Positions 449 to 11,521 of a DNA stretch of 64,000 bases are shown here, piece by piece. Each line of letters starts with the position of its first letter. Positions within the stretch are counted from its first letter, which is position 1. A program made the translations under genes and the position numbers. Origin of the DNA: Ruegeria arenilitoris. GTDB taxonomy: Bacteria; Pseudomonadota; Alphaproteobacteria; Rhodobacterales; Rhodobacteraceae. The notes below the pieces were generated by a model that did not search any database, was not told the DNA's origin, and saw nothing but the letters and a program-made list of their open reading frames with translations. Location of the stretch: positions 248,001-312,000 of the forward strand of contig NZ_WPYP01000004.1 of assembly GCF_013030985.1 (NCBI RefSeq), written 5' to 3'.

Positions 449-1042
449 ATGACCCACGCCCTTCTTGTAATCGACGTCCAGAATGATTTCTGTCCCGGCG
501 GTGCGCTGGCCGTGCCCGGAGGGGATGAGATCGTCGCCCCCATCAATGCCATGATGGGTGATTTCGACGCCGTGATCCTGACGCAGGACTGGCACCCTGC
601 GGATCATTCCTCGTTCGCCAGCAGGCATGACAACAAGAACCCCTTTGACACGAAAGACATGCATTACGGCCCACAGATTCTTTGGCCGGATCACTGCGTT
701 CAGGGCACCGAGGGGGCCAATTTCCACCCGGACCTGAACACACATGCCGATCTGGTCATCCGCAAGGGCTTTCGCAAAGGTATCGACAGTTACTCGGCGT
801 TTTTCGAAAACGACCAGACCACACCGACCGGGCTGGAGGGGTATCTGAGAACGCGTGGCATCGACAAACTAACCCTTGTCGGTCTGGCCACGGATTTCTG
901 CGTCCATTTCTCGGCCATAGACGCCGCGCGGCTCGGGTTTGACGTGACCGTCCGGATGGATGCCTGCCGGGCCATCGATCTGGACGGGTCTTTGGCTGCC
1001 GCAGAAACTGCAATGCGGGACGCTGGCGTAACGCTGTCCTAG
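449..1042 (+). CDS. pncA: Nicotinamidase
   Basis: A 197-residue cysteine hydrolase of the isochorismatase-like superfamily that converts nicotinamide to nicotinate. The catalytic triad is visible as Asp9 (VIDVQNDF), Lys106 (VIRKGF) and Cys151 (ATDFCVHF). Probable metal ligands are Asp47, His49 (TQDWHP) and His82 (WPDHC). The ATG at 449 is preceded by GAGGAG at good spacing, so the longer in-frame extension upstream is rejected. Its last four bases overlap the stop of the convergent unknown gene. Together with pncB 0.7 kb downstream it supplies two consecutive steps of NAD salvage. Confidence 0.95.
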   Translation: MTHALLVIDVQNDFCPGGALAVPGGDEIVAPINAMMGDFDAVILTQDWHPADHSSFASRHDNKNPFDTKDMHYGPQILWPDHCVQGTEGANFHPDLNTHADLVIRKGFRKGIDSYSAFFENDQTTPTGLEGYLRTRGIDKLTLVGLATDFCVHFSAIDAARLGFDVTVRMDACRAIDLDGSLAAAETAMRDAGVTLS

Positions 1043-1563
1043 GGTGTGGTTCCTTCTGACGCCAGATACCTGAGCACCGCGATCACAACCACAGCCAGCC
1101 CAAGCGCAAATCCGATACGACCTTGGATCGAACGTCTTTTGGGTTTGGGCGCGGCGGGCTGTTGCCGTTTCGGTGCCTTGTCCCGAGCCTCCGAGCGGAT
1201 TTCATCCCGTGGCCGGGCCGTCTTTACATCGTCCAAGAACTGCCAGAGGTCGAACGCACCACAATATTCACCCTTTACACCCACAGCCCTGACATTGGCG
1301 AACAACGCGCGCAGGATACGTTCCCGCTCGACCGTGTCCTGCGCACGGAAATACCCATGTGCAAGATTGCTTTTGGCCGTTTCCAGACCAAACCCGGCTT
1401 CTTCGAATATCAGACGTATTTTGGGAGAGGCCGCGCGCAATGCCTCGGCGGCATTGGCATCACGAAACAACGCACGCACCGTCCTGTCCCCGGACGTTGC
1501 GGAGCCTGACTTCGTATTGTCAGCATCAATCGTTACGATATCAAAGTCGTACTCGAAACCCAT
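1039..1563 (-). CDS. Unknown protein with C-terminal membrane anchor
   Basis: A 174-residue protein I do not recognise. The N-terminal 110 residues look soluble and mixed alpha/beta. Then comes a basic, proline-rich linker (KAPKRQQPAAPKPKRR) and a single hydrophobic segment near residues 150-168 (IGFALGLAVVVIAVLRYLA). That is the layout of a tail-anchored protein with its body in the cytoplasm. It has three cysteine-poor, charged regions and no catalytic motif I can name. It lies between pncA (convergent, 4-base overlap) and pncB (divergent), so a link with NAD salvage is possible but only positional. The frame is preferred over the opposite-strand frame because its composition is protein-like and it ends exactly at pncA. 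Confidence 0.65.
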   Translation of the reverse strand: MGFEYDFDIVTIDADNTKSGSATSGDRTVRALFRDANAAEALRAASPKIRLIFEEAGFGLETAKSNLAHGYFRAQDTVERERILRALFANVRAVGVKGEYCGAFDLWQFLDDVKTARPRDEIRSEARDKAPKRQQPAAPKPKRRSIQGRIGFALGLAVVVIAVLRYLASEGTTP

Positions 1564-1606
1564 TCACCGACTTAACCTTGTACTTCCTTCCCCTTCGTCT
1601 CACTAA

Positions 1607-1640
1607 ACAATGAAAGTATCACATAATATGCTCTCATTGT
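1607..1640. promoter_or_regulatory. Inverted repeat in the divergent pncB control region
   Basis: A perfect 7-base inverted repeat (ACAATGA ... TCATTGT) with a 20-base AT-rich interior lies in the 166-base space between the divergent unknown gene and pncB. A further copy of TCATTG follows at 1652-1657. The position suits an operator for either gene. I cannot assign it to a known NAD regulator such as NrtR or NadQ. Confidence 0.35.
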
Positions 1641-1729
1641 GTCGTGACCTTGTCATTGTCTTCGATCCGGCGACTCTTGCCAATCCACGCACCTATTGAT
1701 CTAACAACGGAAATCGCAGGAGTTCCCCC

Positions 1730-3022
1730 ATGATCGATATTGCGACACGCGTGTACAATCATAAATGGAAGATTGACCCGATTGTCCGGTCTTTGATCGA
1801 CACTGACTTCTACAAACTGCTGATGTGCCAGTCAGTGTTTCGAAATAAGCCCCAAACGGATGTGGTGTTTTCGCTGATCAACCGGTCGAATCACATTCCT
1901 TTGGCCGAATTGATCGACGAAGGAGAATTGCGCGAGCAGCTGGACCATATCCGGTCGCTCAGCCTCAGCCGCGGCGAAAGCACATGGCTGCGGGGCAATA
2001 CATTCTACGGCAAACGGCAGATGTTCCGCTCGGACTTCATGGAGTGGTTCGAGAACATGCGCCTGCCGCCCTACCACCTGGAACGCAAGGGCGATCAGTA
2101 CGAACTGACCTTCGAAGGCAAGTGGCACGAGGTCATGCTGTGGGAAATCCCCGCTCTGGCGGTGCTGATGGAGTTGCGATCCCGCGCGGTTCTGAACGAC
2201 ATGCGCCGGTTCGAGCTGCAGGTGCTTTATGCCCGCGCCATGACCCGTGTTTGGGAAAAGATCGAACAGTTGCGGGAAGTCGACGGCCTGGGCATCGCCG
2301 ATTTCGGAACCCGCCGGCGTCATTCCTTCCTGTGGCAGGACTGGTGCGTGCAGGCGATGATCGAAGGGCTGGGACCGGCATTTACCGGCACCTCGAACTG
2401 TTTGATCGCCATGCGGCGCGAGGTCGAGGCGATCGGCACCAACGCGCACGAACTGCCCATGGTCTATTCCGCGCTGGCCGAAACCGATGAGGCGCTGGCG
2501 CAGGCCCCTTATGACGTTCTCAGCGACTGGCATGACGAGCACGACGGCAACCTGCGTATCATCCTGCCTGACACCTATGGCACGCAGGGATTTCTGGACC
2601 GCGCCCCCGATTGGCTGGCGGGCTGGACCGGTATCCGCGTCGACAGCGGCGATCCGGCGGCGGGTGCGGAACGCGCGATCAAATGGTGGGAATCGCGCGG
2701 CGAAGACCCAATGCAAAAGCGGGTCATCTTTTCGGACGGATTGGACGTGAACAAGATCTGCGAGCTTCACAGCCAATTTGCAGGACGCACCAAAGTTTCC
2801 TTTGGCTGGGGCACCCTGCTGACCAACGATTTCCGCGGGCTGGTGCCCGATGACGCGCTGGCACCGTTCTCTCTGGTCTGCAAAGCCGTATCCGCCAACG
2901 GTCGCCCGACGGTGAAACTGTCGGACAACCCGGAAAAGGCAATGGGGCCACAGGATGAGATTGAGCGCTATAAACGGGTGTTCGGTGTTGGCGCGCAAGA
3001 AGCGATTGAGGTCATCGTTTAG
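1730..3022 (+). CDS. pncB: Nicotinate phosphoribosyltransferase
   Basis: A 430-residue enzyme of the NAPRTase family, which makes nicotinate mononucleotide from nicotinate and PRPP with ATP hydrolysis (Preiss-Handler pathway). Diagnostic segments are the N-terminal SLIDTDFYKLLMCQ, the phospho-histidine region DFGTRRRHSF (His198) and the C-terminal phosphate-binding stretches RVDSGDP and KVSFGWGTLLTND. Length is normal for the proteobacterial enzyme. AGGAGTTCCCCC precedes the ATG. It converges on the aldehyde dehydrogenase with only three bases between stops. Confidence 0.96.
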   Translation: MIDIATRVYNHKWKIDPIVRSLIDTDFYKLLMCQSVFRNKPQTDVVFSLINRSNHIPLAELIDEGELREQLDHIRSLSLSRGESTWLRGNTFYGKRQMFRSDFMEWFENMRLPPYHLERKGDQYELTFEGKWHEVMLWEIPALAVLMELRSRAVLNDMRRFELQVLYARAMTRVWEKIEQLREVDGLGIADFGTRRRHSFLWQDWCVQAMIEGLGPAFTGTSNCLIAMRREVEAIGTNAHELPMVYSALAETDEALAQAPYDVLSDWHDEHDGNLRIILPDTYGTQGFLDRAPDWLAGWTGIRVDSGDPAAGAERAIKWWESRGEDPMQKRVIFSDGLDVNKICELHSQFAGRTKVSFGWGTLLTNDFRGLVPDDALAPFSLVCKAVSANGRPTVKLSDNPEKAMGPQDEIERYKRVFGVGAQEAIEVIV

Positions 3023-3025
3023 ACC

Positions 3026-4477
3026 CTAACCATGGCAGGCTGCCACAGTTTTCAGCTGTGAGAACCCGTAAAGGGCCTCGAACCCTTTCTCGCGCCCGTG
3101 ACCGGATTTTCCGACCCCGCCGAAAGGCAGTTCCACCCCGCCGCCGGCACCGTAATTGTTGATGAACACCTGACCCGAGCGGAGCCGTTTCGCCAGCCGC
3201 ATCTGCCGCGCGCCATCGCGGGTCCAGATGCTGGCGACCAGCCCGTAATCGGTGCTGTTGGCGATGTGGACGGCCTCTTCCTCGGTGTCGAAGGGGATCA
3301 GAACCTGAACTGGTCCGAAAATCTCGTCGCGCGCCAGAACGTGATCCGGGGGGACATCAGCAAACAAGGTGGGCCGGACATAGGCGCCTTGCTCCGGCGC
3401 TTGGTCTACGATCCGCCCCTGCCCCGCGATGTTCAGATCAGAGCCCTTGGCCAAGAACCCGGTCACGATCTCTTTCTGCCGGGCCGAGATCAGGGGACCG
3501 ACCCGCAAATCCTCTTGCGCCGGGCCGACGGTCAGATCGGTATACGCCGCGGCCATTCGGGTTTTGACCTGCTCATAAATCCCGCGCTGCACCAGAATGC
3601 GGGACGAGGCAGAACAGGTCTGCCCCGCGTTCTGAATGCCTGCATTCACCAGAAACGGCAGCGCCGCGTCCAGATCGGCATCGTCAAACACCAGTTGCGG
3701 GGATTTCCCGCCCAGTTCCAGCGTCACCGGCACCACATTGCGCCCCGCCGCCTGCTGCACCAGCGCCCCCGTCGCGACCGAGCCGGTGAACGAGATATGG
3801 TCAACGCCCGGATGTCCGGACAGCGCGGCTCCGGCCTCGGCCCCCATTCCGGGCACCACGTTCAACGCGCCCGCAGGCAGGCCAGCCTCTTGCGCCAGAT
3901 GGGCAAAGGCCAGTGCAGTCAGACAGGCCTCTTCCGCCGGTTTCAAGACACAGGCGTTGCCCATCGCCAGCGCCGCCCCGACCGAGCGGCCAATGATCTG
4001 CATCGGGTAATTCCACGGTACGATATGGCCGGTCACCCCATGCGGCTCGCGCAGGGTATAGACGGTGTAACCCTCCAGATAGGGGATGGTCTCTCCCATC
4101 ACCTTATCCGCAGCCCCACCGTAGAATTCGCAATACCGCGCCAAAGCCACCGCATCCGCGCGGGCCTGGGTCAGCGGTTTGCCCACATCCATCGCCTCGA
4201 TCCGCGCCAGATCATCCACCCTTTCCAGAACCAGCTGGCCCAGCCGGGTCAGGATACGGCCCCGTTCCAACGCGGTCTTGCGCCCCCAATCGCCTTGCAG
4301 CGCAGCCTGAGCGGCCTGTACTGCAGCATCGATATCCGTCGCGCCCCCGCGTGCAATCCTGCAAATCTCAGACCCGTCCGACGGGTTGATCAATGGAATA
4401 TCCGCCTGTGACGCAGGGCTGACCCATTTGCCACCGATCAAACACAGGCCGGGATTGAACCAGAGTGGGTTGGGCAT
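3026..4477 (-). CDS. NAD(P)-dependent aldehyde dehydrogenase
   Basis: A 483-residue ALDH-superfamily enzyme oxidising an aldehyde to a carboxylate. Visible are the nucleotide-binding segment around FTGSVATGA, the general base Glu254 in LELGGKSPQ, and the nucleophile Cys288 in GQTCSASS. It is the last gene of the peptide-type importer operon, 31 bases after the ATPase stop. This suggests it processes an aldehyde from the imported compound, for example from an amine or amino-acid derivative. The substrate cannot be read from sequence; resemblance is to the gamma-aminobutyraldehyde/betaine aldehyde branch, so no symbol is given. No truncation is seen. Confidence 0.9.
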   Translation of the reverse strand: MPNPLWFNPGLCLIGGKWVSPASQADIPLINPSDGSEICRIARGGATDIDAAVQAAQAALQGDWGRKTALERGRILTRLGQLVLERVDDLARIEAMDVGKPLTQARADAVALARYCEFYGGAADKVMGETIPYLEGYTVYTLREPHGVTGHIVPWNYPMQIIGRSVGAALAMGNACVLKPAEEACLTALAFAHLAQEAGLPAGALNVVPGMGAEAGAALSGHPGVDHISFTGSVATGALVQQAAGRNVVPVTLELGGKSPQLVFDDADLDAALPFLVNAGIQNAGQTCSASSRILVQRGIYEQVKTRMAAAYTDLTVGPAQEDLRVGPLISARQKEIVTGFLAKGSDLNIAGQGRIVDQAPEQGAYVRPTLFADVPPDHVLARDEIFGPVQVLIPFDTEEEAVHIANSTDYGLVASIWTRDGARQMRLAKRLRSGQVFINNYGAGGGVELPFGGVGKSGHGREKGFEALYGFSQLKTVAACHG

Positions 4478-4508
4478 TTGGGCCTCCTTTCAGGCTCTAA
4501 CTAAGGGT

Positions 4509-6107
4509 TTATGCGACGTGTGTGCCGATTTCCGGCAAAACGGGCGCGGCTTCGATCAGGGTTCGGGTATAAGGATGTTGCGGGTCGGAAAAGACCTGTT
4601 CGGTCTCACCCTGTTCAACGATCCGGCCCGCCTGCATCACCATCACCCGGTCGGTAATCGTTCGCACAACGCTCAGGTCATGGCTGATGAACAGGTAGGT
4701 CAGGTCGTAGGCGGCACAAAGCTCGGCCAGCAGGTCCAGTATCTGCGCGCGGACCGAGACGTCCAGCGCCGAAACGGCCTCATCAAACAGGATCAGTTCG
4801 GGGCGGATGATTAACGCGCGGGCGATAGCGATGCGCTGTCGCTGCCCGCCCGAGAACTCGTGAATGTACTTTCCCGCGTCGTCGGGGCTGAGTCCCACGG
4901 CTGTCAGCATCTCGGCGATGCGGTCCTGGCGTTCGGACCCCGTGGGAGGGGTGTCCAACAGATGAAACGGTTCGGTGATCAGACGGGCGACACGGTGGCG
5001 CGGGTTGAAGCTGCCATAGGGGTCCTGAAACACCACCTGCATCTTGCGACGCACCGCCGGGTTCGGCCTGTGGCCCGAGAAAACCGGCTGCCCGTCCAGG
5101 CGAATTTCACCGCTTTGGACCTCTTTCAGCCCCAGAATAGCCCGTGTTAGGGTCGACTTTCCACATCCGGACTCGCCCACCAACCCCAGACGCTCTCCCC
5201 GGTTCAAGGTAAAGCTGACGCCGTCCACTGCACGATGATGTCCCGGCGTGCCGAACAGGCCCTTTCGGGGCAGGCGGTAATCGCGGGTGACCTGTGTCAC
5301 CTCAAGCAGGGGGCGTGGATCAGCGGCGTCGGGCAGCGACACCTGATGGCCGGAGGCTTCGAACAGCATCCTTGTATAAGGGTGCCGCATGTTGCGCAGC
5401 AGGTGGGCCGTTGCCCCGCTTTCGACCACCTCTCCGCGGCGCATCACCGCGATCTGATCAGCCATATCCGCCACCACCGCCAGATCATGCGTAATCATCA
5501 GCAGACCCATGCCGTATTCGCGCACCAGCCCTTTGAGCAGGTCGAGGATCTGCGCCTGAGTGGTCACGTCCAGCGCGGTTGTCGGTTCGTCCGCGATCAA
5601 CAGCTTGGGGCGTAGTGCGATGGCCATGGCAATTACCACACGCTGGCGCTGACCTCCGGACAGCTCATGCGGATAGCGGGACAGCGGAAAGCGGTCGGGC
5701 GGCAGGCCGACGCGGGTCAGAACCTCTTGCGCGCGCGCCAGCGCCTGCGGGGGCGGCATGGCTTTGTGGATCAGAATCGTCTCCATCACCTGATCGCCGA
5801 TGGTCTTGACCGGGTTCAGGGCGGTCATCGGTTCCTGAAACACCATTCCGATGGCGGCCCCGCGCAGGGCGCACATCTTAGCCTCGGGACGGGTCAACAG
5901 GTCCTGACCCTCCAGCCGGATCGCACCCTGCGCCTGCGCCCCGCTCGGCAGCAATTTCATTACGGCGAGTGCGGTCATAGACTTGCCCGAGCCACTTTCC
6001 CCAGTCACAGCCACGATCTGACCGGGATTGATGGACAGGCTGACCTTTTTCAGGATGTCCGCGCCGTGGATCGACAGCGACAGGTTTTCGATCTGCAACA
6101 AACTCAT
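4509..6107 (-). CDS. Fused two-domain peptide-type ABC ATPase (DppD-DppF type)
   Basis: A 532-residue protein carrying two complete ABC ATPase domains in tandem. Each has a Walker A (GESGSGKS near 36-43; GESGCGKS in the second half), an LSGGQRQR or FSGGQRQR signature, and a Walker B (LLIADEPTTALD; LILFDEAVSALD). Both end with the oligopeptide-family extension (PYTRMLFEA, PYTRTLIEA). It energises the DppB/DppC-like permeases from the cytoplasmic face. The start at 6107 (MSLLQIENLS) overlaps the permease stop by four bases; in-frame sequence further upstream belongs to the permease in another frame. Fusion of the two ATPases is common in alphaproteobacterial importers of this family. Confidence 0.94.
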   Translation of the reverse strand: MSLLQIENLSLSIHGADILKKVSLSINPGQIVAVTGESGSGKSMTALAVMKLLPSGAQAQGAIRLEGQDLLTRPEAKMCALRGAAIGMVFQEPMTALNPVKTIGDQVMETILIHKAMPPPQALARAQEVLTRVGLPPDRFPLSRYPHELSGGQRQRVVIAMAIALRPKLLIADEPTTALDVTTQAQILDLLKGLVREYGMGLLMITHDLAVVADMADQIAVMRRGEVVESGATAHLLRNMRHPYTRMLFEASGHQVSLPDAADPRPLLEVTQVTRDYRLPRKGLFGTPGHHRAVDGVSFTLNRGERLGLVGESGCGKSTLTRAILGLKEVQSGEIRLDGQPVFSGHRPNPAVRRKMQVVFQDPYGSFNPRHRVARLITEPFHLLDTPPTGSERQDRIAEMLTAVGLSPDDAGKYIHEFSGGQRQRIAIARALIIRPELILFDEAVSALDVSVRAQILDLLAELCAAYDLTYLFISHDLSVVRTITDRVMVMQAGRIVEQGETEQVFSDPQHPYTRTLIEAAPVLPEIGTHVA

Positions 6108-6919
6108 GCCCGCGCCACCCTGATCCTTGGGTCCAGCCAATCGCGCAACCCGTCGCCAAGCAGGTTCAGACCCAGGACGGTGACAATAATCGCCAGCCCC
6201 GGAATCAGAGCCAAATGCGGGGCAAAACTGACCATTGTTTGCGCATCCGCCAGCATCCGGCCCCAGCTGGGTGTGGGTGGCTGCGCGCCAAGGCCGACAT
6301 AGGACAGCCCGGCCTCGGCCAGTATCCCAAGGCTGAACTGGATGGTCCCCTGCACGATCAGCAGGTTCGCCACATTGGGCAGGATATGTTCTGCAGATAT
6401 CCGCGCCGCACCCTTGCCCGAGACACGGGCGGCGAGGATGAACTCCCGCTCCCACAGCGACAACGCGGCCCCACGGGTGATGCGGGCAAACACGGGGATA
6501 TTGAAGATGCCGATGGCGATGATGGCGTTGATCGCTCCGGCCCCGAAAACGGCGGTGATCAGGATGGCGATGACCAGCGAGGGGAAGGCAAAGACCAGAT
6601 CATTGCCGCGCATGATGACCTCATCCAGCCACGATCCCTTGCGCGCAGCTGCGGTCAGGCCCAGGGGCACGCCCAGCGCCATGCCGATGCCCACCGCAAC
6701 CAGCGCCACTGCAATCGACGTGCGCGCGCCCACCATGATCATCGAGAACATGTCGCGGCCGAAATGATCCGTGCCGAACCAGTGCTGCGCATTGGGCGGC
6801 TGCAATTTGTCGGGGATATCCAGCGCCGCGTAATCGTAAGGTGTCCAGATGAAAGAGACCAAGGCCGCCAGCAGAACCAGCGAGGACAACACCGCGCCAA
6901 GGATCAGGTTACGGCTCAT
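6104..6919 (-). CDS. Peptide-type ABC transporter permease, DppC-like
   Basis: A 271-residue inner-membrane permease. It starts with one N-terminal helix and a periplasmic stretch (PNAQHWFGTDHFGRDMFSMIMVGARTS, the hallmark DppC segment), followed by about five more helices. The coupling loop ITRGAALSLWEREFILAARVSGKGAARI is the EAA motif that contacts the ATPase. The start overlaps the upstream permease stop by four bases, indicating translational coupling. It pairs with the DppB-like protein to form the channel. Confidence 0.93.
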   Translation of the reverse strand: MSRNLILGAVLSSLVLLAALVSFIWTPYDYAALDIPDKLQPPNAQHWFGTDHFGRDMFSMIMVGARTSIAVALVAVGIGMALGVPLGLTAAARKGSWLDEVIMRGNDLVFAFPSLVIAILITAVFGAGAINAIIAIGIFNIPVFARITRGAALSLWEREFILAARVSGKGAARISAEHILPNVANLLIVQGTIQFSLGILAEAGLSYVGLGAQPPTPSWGRMLADAQTMVSFAPHLALIPGLAIIVTVLGLNLLGDGLRDWLDPRIRVARA

Positions 6920-7863
6920 GTCCGGCTCCTTAGCCTTGGATCGACGGCGGCATAGGCCAGATCGACCAGAAAGTTCACGGTGATGACGGCAAAGACCAGC
7001 AGCATGACGACCGATTCCACCACGATCAGGTCACGGGCCGAGATCGCCTGAAACACCAGCCGCCCGAGGCCGGGCAGGTAGAACACCTGCTCGATGATGA
7101 TCGATCCCGCCAGCAGGAACGAGAATTGCAGGCCGATGATGGTCAGCACCGGGATCAGAGCGTTCCGCACCCCGTGCCGCCACAACGCCTGGCGGCGGGA
7201 CAGGCCCTTGGCGCGGGCGGTGCGCATGAAATCCTCGCCCAGAATATCCAGCAACGACGACCGCATCACCCGTGCCAGAATCGCCGCCTGTGGCAGGGCC
7301 AGCGCAATGGCGGGCAGGGTCAGGGAATGCAGACCGGTCCAGAGCCCCTGATCCCAGCCCGCAAACCCGCCCGCATTGAACCAGCGCAGGTTGATGGCAA
7401 AGATCAGCACCAGCATCATGGCGAACCAGAAATTCGGCACCGCGATGCCCAGCTGTGTTGCGCCCATGACCGTCAGATCCCCGGGTTTGCCCCGGCGCGC
7501 GGCGGCGTAAATCCCGGCGGGAAAGGCAATCAGCGTCGACAGCGTCAGCGCATAAAGCGCCAGCGGCAGCGACACCCACAACCGGTCCGCAATCATCTGC
7601 GATACCGGCGTGCGATAGGTGTAGGACGTGCCGAAATCCCCCACCAGCATCCCGCCGACCCAGTTGAAATAGCGCTGTGCCTTTGAGACGTCCAACCCAA
7701 GCTCGGCCCGCAACGCGGCCAGAGTATCCTCCTGCGCGTTCACGCCCAGCATGAACGAGGCCGGATCACCCGGCGCGACCTCGATCACCGCGAATATGAC
7801 CACCGAGGCGACGGCCAGGCTGATCAGCAGTGAAATCAGACGTTTGAGGGCATAGCGCAGCAT
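6916..7863 (-). CDS. Peptide-type ABC transporter permease, DppB-like
   Basis: The start MLRYALKRLISL at 7863 gives a 315-residue permease. A GTG at 7881 would add six residues; neither has a clear Shine-Dalgarno, and I prefer the ATG because DppB proteins usually begin this way. It has a first helix, then the periplasmic PGDPASFML segment, five further helices and the coupling-loop region DFMRTARAKGLSRRQALWRHGVRNA. It follows the ion-channel gene by 40 bases on the same strand and is coupled to the DppC-like gene. Confidence 0.92.
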   Translation of the reverse strand: MLRYALKRLISLLISLAVASVVIFAVIEVAPGDPASFMLGVNAQEDTLAALRAELGLDVSKAQRYFNWVGGMLVGDFGTSYTYRTPVSQMIADRLWVSLPLALYALTLSTLIAFPAGIYAAARRGKPGDLTVMGATQLGIAVPNFWFAMMLVLIFAINLRWFNAGGFAGWDQGLWTGLHSLTLPAIALALPQAAILARVMRSSLLDILGEDFMRTARAKGLSRRQALWRHGVRNALIPVLTIIGLQFSFLLAGSIIIEQVFYLPGLGRLVFQAISARDLIVVESVVMLLVFAVITVNFLVDLAYAAVDPRLRSRT

Positions 7864-7903
7864 CGAGGCCACGTTAGGCACACAATACGCGCGGGTCCAG
7901 CAC

Positions 7904-8968
7904 CTAGGGCACCAGCAGATAGATGAAAATCGCGTAGGCGACGATGGCGGCGTAGCCCAGCGGGTAAATCCACTTGATCGCGTAATTGTCCAGCTTTCTG
8001 GCCCCGTCCTCGCGCCCGGATACCTTCAGTTTGCGCAGGGCCACGTTGAACACGATCAGCGCCCCGGTCATCAGGAACATGCATTGCAGGATGAAATCCA
8101 GAAAGGTCAGATATCCAAGCTTGGGCAGATCAGCAGAGATCGCCCAGTTGAAGGCCACGAAAACCAGCAGATTGCCCCCGGCGATCTCGATCCTGCGGCG
8201 GTATTCGTCAAGGAAGAACAGCGCCCAGCCAACAGTGATCAGAACCAGCATCGGCAGGAACACCCGGATCACATAGTAGGTCAGATGCCGCTTGCCCTCG
8301 AAGGCCAGAGCGACCTGATCGCTGTCCCGGCCGGACAGGCCGATCACCGTCGAGCGCTCGACCCGGGGGTTGTCCAGAATCCACTCTTCCTCGCCCAACA
8401 GATCGCCAAGGCCCGAGTACTTCTCGAGCGGGTAAAAGGACACGAATTCGGACGGAAAGACCGAGACGACCTCAAAAAAGAACTCCTGCGTGTCGAACGG
8501 GTATTTGCGGAAATCGAAATGCGGGGCCTGTAAGGTCAGCGAGGATTTCTCGACATAGATCACATGCCCGTCATCGCGCAATGAGGCCGCGGATTCGTGA
8601 ATCCACTTGTTGGATTGCTGGTTATGGATGACGAAAGCGGGCACAATCGCACCCAACCCCCGCGCGTGATCGGCCAGGGCCGGAGGGTTGAAGACCTGAA
8701 TTTCGCGCCCGACCTCATCGCGGTCAAAGGCCAGCGCAGGGTCGGTCCATTCGGCCCTCAGAACAACGACGGCACCATAGTTTTCGGCCTTCTGATCGAC
8801 GCTGGTGACCTGATCGATGCGGATACCAATCCCCACCTTCAGCGGGTTTTCAGGCGTACCAACCAGCGGCCCAACCCCGCCTGCCAGCCCGTTTTGCGCC
8901 TGCGCCCCGCCCCCCGCGGCAAGGAGGCAGGCAACAATTACAAGACAGAGGACGCGAAACAGGTTCAT
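7904..8968 (-). CDS. Pentameric ligand-gated ion channel (Cys-loop/GLIC superfamily) inside the importer operon
   Basis: A 354-residue protein with a signal peptide (about 1-25), a beta-rich extracellular domain to about 228, and four helices: M1 231-252, M2 256-279, M3 288-312, M4 332-353. The signature FDFRKYPFD (151-159) corresponds to the Cys-loop region; as in other prokaryotic members the flanking cysteines are absent. HLTYYVIRVFLPM enters M1, and VAFNWAISADLPKLGYLT matches the end of M2 and the M2-M3 loop of GLIC-type channels. It would form an inner-membrane pentamer gated by a periplasmic ligand or protons. It lies between the peptide-binding protein (55 bases upstream) and the DppB-like permease (40 bases downstream), all on one strand. 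The ligand and ion selectivity are unknown; the family call is strong. Confidence 0.9.
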   Translation of the reverse strand: MNLFRVLCLVIVACLLAAGGGAQAQNGLAGGVGPLVGTPENPLKVGIGIRIDQVTSVDQKAENYGAVVVLRAEWTDPALAFDRDEVGREIQVFNPPALADHARGLGAIVPAFVIHNQQSNKWIHESAASLRDDGHVIYVEKSSLTLQAPHFDFRKYPFDTQEFFFEVVSVFPSEFVSFYPLEKYSGLGDLLGEEEWILDNPRVERSTVIGLSGRDSDQVALAFEGKRHLTYYVIRVFLPMLVLITVGWALFFLDEYRRRIEIAGGNLLVFVAFNWAISADLPKLGYLTFLDFILQCMFLMTGALIVFNVALRKLKVSGREDGARKLDNYAIKWIYPLGYAAIVAYAIFIYLLVP

Positions 8969-8994
8969 TATCAGGCTTACTCGGGAACAGGGGC

Positions 8995-9016
8995 CCGGGG
9001 CCGGTTACAGCCCCGG
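8995..9016 (-). other. GC-rich stem-loop between binding protein and channel genes
   Basis: A perfect 7-bp stem (CCGGGGC / GCCCCGG) with an 8-base loop sits in the 55-base gap after the binding-protein gene, with no T-tract. Such intercistronic hairpins often protect the binding-protein mRNA or damp readthrough, giving more binding protein than membrane subunits. That role here is inference. Confidence 0.45.
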
Positions 9017-9023
9017 ACAGGGC

Positions 9024-10511
9024 TTATTCGGACCAGCTGATCTGGGTCAGGTCGATCGCAGCCGTCGGTGCGTTCATCCAAAGGCCCTGCACTCCGGCTT
9101 TGGCGATCCCCAGCTTGGGCAGCTGGAACAGATAGCCGTTGACGTAATCGGTCGAAATCAGCCGCTGCATGTCGCCCAGCAGTTTCTTACGTTCCTCCGG
9201 GTCGGTGGTCGCGTTCAGCGTCTCCATCAGCGTCTGGGCGTCCAGGCTGTCATACTGGAAATAGTAGTCCGGGCGCGCATAGATTCCGATGTCCATCGGC
9301 TCGGTATGGCTGATGACGGTCAGGTCGTAATCCTTGCCCTTGAACACCGATTCCAGCCATTGCGCCCATTCCACGTTGATGATCTCGGCGGTGATGCCGA
9401 CCTCGGCCAGTTGTGCGGCGATGATTTCACCGCCGCGGCGAGCGTAAGAAGGCGGCGGCAGGTGCAATGTGGTTTTGAACCCCTCTTCATAGCCCGCATC
9501 AGCCAGCAGCTTGGCCGCTTTTTCCGGGTCATAGGCCGAATTTCCGGTCAGATCGACATAAGCCGGGTTGTGCGGTGCGAAATGGGTGCCAATTGGTGTG
9601 CCATATCCAAACATCGCCCCGTCAATAATGGCCTGTCGGTCGATGGCATGAGCCAATGCCTGGCGCACACGGATGTCATCAAACGGAGGCTTCTTGTTGT
9701 TGGTGGACAGGATCGTTTCACCCTCGGTCGAACCGACAAGCACCTGAAAGCGCGGATCGGCCTCGAACTGCGGCAGGTTCTCCGGCGCGGGGAAGTTGTC
9801 GAACACGTCCACATCCTCGGCCATCATGGCGGCGAAAGCGGCGGTCGGGTCCGAGATGAATTTGAACGTTGCAGCCTCCAACGCGGGCTGAGCCCCCCAA
9901 TAGTCCGGGTTTCGGATCAGCGTGATGCTGTCGCCCTGCACCCAGTTACCAAATGTATAGGCCCCGGTGCCGACGGGGTTGGTGGTGATGTTATCAATAC
10001 TGTCGGGGGACACGATCACCGCATCCCCCCAGGCCATGTTGAACAGGAAATTGCCGTCAGGTTCGGACAGGGTCACCTTGACGGTCAGCGGATCGACGAC
10101 CTCAACGCTTTCGATTCCGGCAAACAGCGCCTTTTGCGCGTTGGCGCTGTCTTCGGCGCTGGCGCGGTCGAGGCTGAACTTGACGTCCTCGGCATCCATC
10201 GTGGTGCCATCATGGAAAGTCACGCCGTCGTGCAACTTGAAAGTATAGACGGTGCCGTCCTCGGAAATCTCCCAGCTTTCGGCCAGCCCGGGCACGACCG
10301 AGCCATCGCCCATGAACCGGGTCAGCCCTTCGAAAATGTTGGTGTAAACCACCGAGTCGATCGCCTGCGCCGCAGCGCTGGTCGGGTCAAGATGCGGCGG
10401 CTCAAGCTGCATCGCGATGGTGATATCGGACTTGGCCAAAGCCCCGGTGGCAAAGACACTTGCCCCCAGCGCCAGGGCCGATGCAAAGGATTTCAACATC
10501 TGATTTGTCAT
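9024..10511 (-). CDS. Periplasmic peptide/opine-type solute-binding protein (SBP family 5)
   Basis: A 495-residue extracytoplasmic solute-binding protein with a Sec signal peptide (cleavage near ATGALA/KS, residue 26). Typical family-5 segments are DPTSAAAQAIDSVVYTNIFEGLTRF, GLAESWEISEDGTVYTFKLHDGVTFHDG and DAEDVKFSLDRA. Later come the C-terminal segments RQALAHAIDRQAIIDG and KGKDYDLTVISHTEPMDIGIYARPDYYF. It captures the substrate in the periplasm for the DppBC-like permeases. It is the first gene of the operon, with panB divergent 170 bases away. Substrate (peptide, opine, glutathione-like or other) cannot be set from sequence. Confidence 0.93.
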   Translation of the reverse strand: MTNQMLKSFASALALGASVFATGALAKSDITIAMQLEPPHLDPTSAAAQAIDSVVYTNIFEGLTRFMGDGSVVPGLAESWEISEDGTVYTFKLHDGVTFHDGTTMDAEDVKFSLDRASAEDSANAQKALFAGIESVEVVDPLTVKVTLSEPDGNFLFNMAWGDAVIVSPDSIDNITTNPVGTGAYTFGNWVQGDSITLIRNPDYWGAQPALEAATFKFISDPTAAFAAMMAEDVDVFDNFPAPENLPQFEADPRFQVLVGSTEGETILSTNNKKPPFDDIRVRQALAHAIDRQAIIDGAMFGYGTPIGTHFAPHNPAYVDLTGNSAYDPEKAAKLLADAGYEEGFKTTLHLPPPSYARRGGEIIAAQLAEVGITAEIINVEWAQWLESVFKGKDYDLTVISHTEPMDIGIYARPDYYFQYDSLDAQTLMETLNATTDPEERKKLLGDMQRLISTDYVNGYLFQLPKLGIAKAGVQGLWMNAPTAAIDLTQISWSE

Positions 10512-10681
10512 AAAAATCTCCCACCGTTCTTATGGCTGAACCCGCTGTTTTACGGACCTTTCTGCGAGTAATGTCCCTTTAAACCTCGGGTCAATCAAGG
10601 AAATGTTCGCGCAACCGGGGTTTCTATAACCTTGTTCAATCTGCTATGCCGCGCTGCAACATGAACACCGGAGGAGCGATC

Positions 10682-11521
10682 ATGAGCGCCACCGCCCATA
10701 AAAAAGCCCCCAATGCCGAGGACATCCGCGCCCGCAAAGGGGGCACGCCGCTGGTCTCTCTGACCGCTTACACGACCCCGATGGCGCGGTTGATGGATGC
10801 CCATTGCGACTTTGTTCTGGTGGGCGACAGCGTCGGCATGGTGCTGCACGGGATGGAATCGACGCTGGGCGTGACGATGGAGATGATGATCCTGCACGGA
10901 CAGGCCGTTTCGCGCGGGCTGAACAAGGCGATGATGGTCATCGACATGCCGTTTGCCAGCTATGAACATGACAAGGCCGGGGCGTTCCGCAATGCCGCCC
11001 GCCTGATGGCGGAAACCGGCGCCGGTGCGGTCAAGCTGGAAGGTGGGGTCGAGATGGCCGAGACCATCCGCTTTCTGGTCAAGCGCGGCATTCCGGTGAT
11101 GGCGCATATCGGCCTGACGCCCCAATCGATCAACACGCTGGGCGGCTACAAGGTGCAGGGCCGGGACGAACAGGCCGAGGCCGTGCTGGCCGACGCCCGA
11201 GCAGTGGCCGAGGCGGGCGCGTTTTCGGTGGTGCTCGAGAAGGTGCCGCAAGGTCTGGCCGACCGGATCACATCCGAGGTTGCGATTCCGACCATCGGCA
11301 TCGGGGCCTCGGTTGGATGTGACGGGCAGATTTTGGTGGTCGACGACATGGTGGGCTTTTTCACCGCTTTCAAACCGAAATTCGTCAAACGCTATGCTGA
11401 ACTGGGCCCACAGGCCGAAGCCGCCATCGCCGAGTACGCCGCCGAAGTGCGCGCCCGCGCCTTTCCGGCCGACGAACATGTGTTCGCGGATCAGGCGCCC
11501 TCCAAAGGACCCAAAACATGA
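10682..11521 (+). CDS. panB: 3-methyl-2-oxobutanoate hydroxymethyltransferase
   Basis: A 279-residue enzyme transferring a hydroxymethyl group from 5,10-methylene-tetrahydrofolate to alpha-ketoisovalerate, giving ketopantoate, the first committed step to pantothenate. Recognisable segments are [60 protein letters not shown] and IGIGAS, covering the metal and substrate sites. The ATG at 10682 follows GGAGGAGCGATC, so the 12-residue longer frame is rejected. It overlaps panC by four bases (ATGA), so the two are translated together. Confidence 0.96.

Follow-up and report, generated by a model that had tools for sequence, protein, structure and literature searches.

A pentameric ligand-gated ion channel gene in an apparently exchangeable slot of a Rhodobacteraceae importer locus

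Bacterial relatives of neurotransmitter receptors have been described as solved channel structures and as genes associated with binding proteins. In passages of Tasneem et al. 2004 (PMC549065), fusions to binding proteins were reported, along with predicted operons that contain stand-alone PBP-II genes, and chemoreception was proposed; the general binding-protein/channel idea is already in print. Here we analysed a channel gene in a 64,000-nt stretch of the Ruegeria arenilitoris genome (contig NZ_WPYP01000004.1, positions 248,001 to 312,000, referred to as the window, in whose coordinates positions are given). The gene lies next to that for a periplasmic solute-binding protein (SBP) of the SBP_bac_5 family, which we take to belong to PBP-II. 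As in the predicted ART-LGIC/PBP-II operons, a channel gene stands beside a stand-alone binding-protein gene, but in Ruegeria the importer locus is complete, and the channel separates its SBP from its permease gene in what appears to be an exchangeable slot. The running text of Tasneem et al. 2004 mentions neither Ruegeria nor Silicibacter by name, and among the matches listed for openly licensed PMC papers we found neither this locus nor the exchange of its slot described.

The reading that we favour, with a probability of roughly 0.58, is that the channel is an exchangeable accessory in a permissive slot of a widespread Rhodobacteraceae importer locus and not an obligate part of the importer. 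The role of bacterial neurotransmitter-receptor relatives is an open question, and a passage of PMC4795631 stated that, as of 2016, no such microbial channel protein had been studied in vivo. Ruegeria supplies natural comparisons, with sister species whose otherwise conserved importer locus has the channel, another gene (X339) or nothing in the slot. Because such comparisons exist, the cooperation idea of 2004 is directly testable.

From its sequence, the channel gene is predicted to encode a pentameric channel subunit of the sTeLIC/DeCLIC type. The product matched Neur_chan_LBD (Pfam PF02931) at 44 bits with a cut-off of 26, and did not reach the cut-offs of NCBIfam LGIC_1 (90.4 of 500 bits) and TIGR00860 (84.9 of 280.2 bits). 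The nearest solved relatives by sequence were sTeLIC (6fl9, E 2.2e-77) and DeCLIC (6v4a, E 2.2e-69), followed by GLIC, and Foldseek with an AlphaFold2 model of the channel (30 aligned rows, pLDDT 73.8, pTM 0.60) also placed sTeLIC and DeCLIC first and then GLIC. The N-terminus carries a hydrophobic stretch, and the model showed eleven strands of three or more residues up to residue 227, forming an all-beta extracellular domain, followed by four long helices (229-252, 256-278, 289-316 and 320-352). sTeLIC was the closest solved relative by both sequence and fold (42% identity, TM 0.75/0.85) and has the same domain plan, neither protein having an extra N-terminal domain. In contrast, DeCLIC (6v4a, 9ftg), which belongs to the same subfamily, has a large additional N-terminal domain that is absent from the Ruegeria channel. 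The conserved loop proline, a feature taken from the abstract of PMC4795631, is P157 in FDFRKYPFDTQ (151-161) and was invariant across the 30 aligned rows. In M2, the channel sequence DEYRRRIEIAGGNLL was aligned with KDYGRQLEVASGNLL of DeCLIC, and E255 and E261 fell at the positions of acidic residues in DeCLIC M2. A passage of PMC9897478 classed DeCLIC as cation-selective from two acidic rings, and the Ruegeria channel would be expected to permeate cations.

Distribution of the channel gene and exchange of its slot

Within the genus, the channel was found at E<=1e-50 in 38 of 54 genomes, and it lay downstream of the SBP gene in all 38 (the window, G043 and G429 were located directly, 31 by equal contig coordinates and four from loci examined later; G and L numbers are our handles for genomes and loci). 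The same order, SBP and then channel, was found in other genera, among them Leisingera, Tropicibacter and Falsiruegeria. The preliminary description of this DNA had looked to homologue neighbourhoods for a conserved binding protein-channel order and had counted a placement found in one genome as evidence against its proposal; the order was conserved, and the placement is not confined to one genome. Over 49 loci the median spacing was 61 nt between SBP and channel and 40 nt between the channel and the DppB-like permease gene (DppB). About 6.5 kb of other genes separate channel and DppB in G043/L058, and about 1.3 kb in Leisingera. In L058, sarcosine oxidase subunit-like genes and an AraC/GlxA-type regulator, named by eye, lie ~1.4-7.6 kb past the SBP stop.

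The importer does not always come with the channel, since all 16 channel-less members of the genus keep the SBP gene. The slot of these members held X339 in nine cases, an opposite-strand open reading frame (ORF) of 108 aa in four, nothing in two and an N/assembly gap in one. The claim that the channel is embedded in the operon, in the sense of one functional unit, was not supported, as channel-less members keep the SBP and other genes stand at the same point.

The family survey covered 394 genomes, with close to one for each genus, and 29 of them gave a channel match of any kind at E<=1e-3. The channel was at the importer locus in 14 of these, intact in 11 (G000, G043, G073, G038, G228, G389, G087, G005, G193, G204 and G213) and interrupted or cut by a contig end in three (G110, G296 and G220, the SBP side of G220 lying beyond the contig). 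The SBP was found at E<=1e-150 in 241 of the 394 genomes, 13 of them with the channel adjoining. No channel match was found in the SBP regions of 40 family genomes without a close channel, a subset of such genomes, and six of the 40 hold a distant channel elsewhere. DppB was visible in 32 of these 40 regions, and the gap between SBP and DppB contained no gene in 11, cupin and/or histone deacetylase (HDAC)-like genes in 10 and other genes in 11. The close channel subfamily was found at E<=1e-40 in one of 385 genomes of the class, the genome of the window itself, and at E<=1e-30 in two of 398 genomes of the phylum, the same genome and G1053 from another family; no part of this importer locus was found near the G1053 channel.

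The phylogenetic history of the slot was compared with that of its flanks. On a tree of the flanking genes (SBP, DppB, DppC and ATPase, 98 rows), explaining channel presence took a minimum of 16 changes, and all slot states together took 32. Approximately unbiased (AU) tests on 49 Ruegeria-centred rows rejected a single clade for the nine X339 loci (p 0.0008) and likewise for the channel-less loci (p 4e-6). The grouping of L056 and L058 with L054/L055/L072 in the channel tree was rejected by the flanks (p 1e-8). The channel data in turn spoke against placing L058 among its flank kin (p 0.0009), and also against L056 among its kin (p 0.008). A control group, L045/L049/L071, was already a clade of the channel tree (support 85). 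These p values are optimistic because the groups were picked after the trees were seen, and the trees were quick ones in which long branches were flagged. Because channel and flank data reject each other's groupings, the slot gene has been swapped between lineages, at least in the tested cases, and the exchange probably occurred by recombination in the conserved flanks. The slot channels formed one clade (51 rows, SH-aLRT 97) outside which L085, L087, L088, L073 and sTeLIC fell, and a single entry of the channel into the slot would be the simplest reading. L075, with an interrupted channel, was left out of the channel tree, distances and dN/dS, and L217, with an N gap, was left out of the tree-change and motif counts; nine loci with SBP but without DppB in the stretch and four duplicate rows were dropped.

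The median dN/dS of the slot channels was 0.21 (477 pairs, dS 0.1-1.2), compared with 0.11 for SBP and 0.07 for DppB, indicating purifying selection on a channel gene that evolves faster than the importer genes. The mean p-distance was 0.30 in the extracellular domain versus 0.19 in the membrane domain (46 loci). Channel genes were apparently interrupted in Jhaorihella (L075/L089), G296 (L092/L095) and G007 (L090), and because of these copies the gene can be regarded as losable.

X339 encodes 339 aa with a signal-peptide-like start, as judged by eye (for example L207:2631-3650, plus strand, and eight other Ruegeria slots), and gave no match in Pfam or NCBIfam. Of the 54 genus genomes, 10 gave a strong match (11 at E<=1e-10). 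Nine of the strong matches are in the slot; the tenth is at another place in G429, where the channel occupies the slot. In L221-L223, weak relatives precede a lepA-like gene named by eye. The 108-aa ORF was matched in five of the 54 genomes, four times in the slot; the name SH3-like for this ORF is an impression and 'Sel1' a label, neither of them supported by a family search.

Locus layout and transcription signals

The features of the locus are as follows.

9024..10511, minus strand: SBP_bac_5 (peptide/opine/nickel-type) periplasmic binding protein, the SBP, 495 aa (Pfam E 7.7e-96)
8993..9018, minus strand: GC-rich hairpin with an 11-bp stem and no T run, directly 3' of the SBP stop
7864..9023, minus strand: the slot, apparently exchangeable, from SBP stop to DppB ATG, occupied here by the channel
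7904..8968, minus strand: predicted pentameric ligand-gated ion channel subunit of sTeLIC/DeCLIC type, 354 aa
7871..7899, minus strand: promoter-like element, TGGACC (7899-7894), 17 nt, TAACGT (7876-7871)
6916..7863, minus strand: DppB-like permease, counted from ATG (BPD_transp_1, E 7.4e-39)
6104..6919, minus strand: DppC-like permease (BPD_transp_1), with a 4-base overlap with DppB
4509..6107, minus strand: ATPase with two ABC domains (DppD-DppF fused), a single 532-aa protein (two ABC_tran stretches)
3026..4477, minus strand: aldehyde dehydrogenase, 483 aa (Pfam Aldedh)

The order on the minus strand is SBP, channel, DppB, DppC, fused ATPase and aldehyde dehydrogenase, and in relatives the slot contains X339, the opposite-strand 108-aa ORF, HDAC-like, cupin or other genes, or nothing. 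The position of an intact channel ORF between SBP and the DppB-like permease on one strand agreed in coordinates, strand and order with the preliminary description. As that description stated, the genes for permeases, ATPase and aldehyde dehydrogenase lie further downstream on the channel strand; its range, 6104-10511, omits the last two. The SBP gene ends 55 bases upstream of the channel ORF, and the distance from the channel to DppB is 40 bases with the ATG at 7863 or 22 with a GTG at 7881. Of 98 loci, 97 have an ATG at the corresponding position and one has N there. GGGAG precedes the SBP ATG. As flank markers, a divergent panB/panC-like pair upstream and a convergent pncB-like gene downstream were named by eye.

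The region of the SBP 3' hairpin (8960-9030) folded at -23.8 kcal/mol (z -2.2), and 88 of 98 loci had a fold below -15 kcal/mol in the first 60 nt past the SBP stop, a count made without a shuffle control; four of the ten weakly folding loci were X339 loci. The element TGGACC-TAACGT was found 6-8 nt before the DppB ATG (7 nt in the window) in 80 of 97 loci at a threshold of at least 9 of 12 matches, with a spacer of 17 in 76 loci and of 16 in four. It was present in 45 of 51 channel loci and occurred whatever gene filled the slot. The threshold was reached by 1.1% of 2910 shuffles, the element was present in 4/4 later loci (a small hold-out), and a stricter form of the motif occurred once in the 64-kb window. 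A motif of this type was not found before the channel start in any of 49 loci, where starts were picked by rule and a few look internal. Hairpin and DppB element together suggest two transcription units, and the DppB transcript may be leaderless given the short distance from element to ATG; leaderless transcripts are mentioned in passing in a Caulobacter paper. A single sense transcript of SBP, channel and DppB is less likely because opposite-strand genes fill the slots of some relatives.

Weighing of the explanations

If the channel is an exchangeable accessory, a selected channel would have entered the slot once and since then been kept, lost and re-exchanged. The slot itself is flanked by the hairpin 3' of the SBP gene and the promoter-like element of DppB. 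The channel would be expressed weakly, through transcripts that start at the SBP promoter and read past the hairpin, and would in this way be co-expressed with the binding protein, and DppBCDF and the dehydrogenase would start from their own promoter. Several observations weigh against this reading. All slot-clade channels in the tree stay downstream of the same SBP, and the channel and flank trees largely agree (for example in the Tropicibacter and Leisingera groupings), two conflicts having been tested. The divergence of the channel tracks that of the SBP most closely (Spearman 0.83; partial rank correlation 0.49 after five other genes). The DppB motif was derived from the same related loci in which it was counted, 17 of 97 loci lack it, and a generic sigma-70 scan of 3000-10800 called no site. 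The Tropicibacter/Falsiruegeria loci (L063-L065, L077) have lost the element, and their channel genes end 10 nt upstream of the DppB ATG; the two genes may be joined there. For comparison, panB gave a partial correlation with channel divergence of 0.32 and the dehydrogenase one of 0.02; the correlation with SBP could be expected from co-adaptation or from physical linkage alone.

The channel might instead be a partner of the importer that senses the periplasmic substrate or docks the loaded SBP, leading to a change in ion flux or membrane potential. Wherever the genus has the channel, and likewise at the slot-clade loci from other genera, it follows the same SBP; this constant place favours such a role, as do the closeness of its divergence to that of SBP and the varied places of channel relatives outside the slot. 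Passages of Tasneem et al. 2004 (PMC549065) likewise place channel genes next to stand-alone PBP-II genes and propose cooperation, and a second binding-protein importer, named by eye, precedes the distant channel L101. However, the importer mostly occurs without the channel, unrelated genes take its place in sister species, DppB has a separate promoter-like element, and no residue of SBP, DppB, DppC or ATPase followed the presence of the channel beyond phi ~0.5 in a scan that excluded a single column in which five rows were usable. We regard this explanation of the locus as unlikely. At the other extreme, the channel would be a pure hitch-hiker, the junction of SBP and DppB being a safe landing site and the channel unrelated to the importer even in expression. 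The slot is indeed occupied by unrelated genes on both strands, and X339 and channel relatives occur elsewhere too, but the slot-clade channels of the tree are all inside the slot and on the importer strand, and the absence of a DppB-type motif before the channel suggests that it may depend on SBP transcription; pure hitch-hiking is similarly improbable. It is quite doubtful that the slot is a dedicated exchange site for mutually alternative exported accessory proteins, channel or X339, which would each tune or report on one SBP in a different manner and hence be functional alternatives for a single importer. Returning to the exchangeable accessory, co-expression of channel and SBP is likely, an obligate function in the importer is not, and a direct partnership of channel and importer is possible.

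With regard to the channel relatives outside the slot, no SBP was recognised beside the close-subfamily channels L085, L087, L088, L090 and L225, whose neighbours were named by eye. A partial binding-protein-like ORF lies ~8 kb from the L087 channel, and L073 is present only on a 3.2-kb contig. G213 has two close-subfamily channels, one in the slot and one elsewhere (L087, L086). Distant channels of ~25% identity in three genera (L099, L100 and L102) lie between a urate-hydroxylase-like gene and two tamA/tamB-like genes, and in L101 (~487-9863) a distant channel comes after a TRAP-type binding protein and permease that themselves follow a related importer; these genes were named by eye.

The importer and its substrate

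The locus contains the Pfam components of a peptide/opine/nickel ABC importer, namely SBP_bac_5, two BPD_transp_1 permeases and two ABC domains. These are shared with the Dpp/Opp/Nik importers, but the Ruegeria locus has fused ATPases and a linked aldehyde dehydrogenase. Among the matches listed, SBP, permeases and dehydrogenase were below the cut-off of every NCBIfam family and thus gave no named substrate. The ATPase was above some nickel/opine NCBIfam cut-offs, but its score sums its two domains. Thirteen matches to SBP were found in its own genome, the other 12 at <=34% identity. The predicted structure of SBP was tried as a substrate clue and set aside (pLDDT 41.5 from 11 rows). The genes SPO0097-SPO0101 are candidate orthologues; a passage of one paper lists SPO0098 as a peptide/opine/nickel ATP-binding gene. 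A gene of the Hist_deacetyl family recurs on the opposite strand in the gap between SBP and DppB in several genera (L170:3072-4208, minus strand, and L060:11096-12418, minus strand; also L061, L062, L155, L161, L163, L166, L167 and L181), and Pfam Hist_deacetyl was confirmed for the two of these histone-deacetylase-like slot genes that were tested. Together with the aldehyde dehydrogenase, the histone-deacetylase-like slot gene might hint at acetylated amines as substrates.

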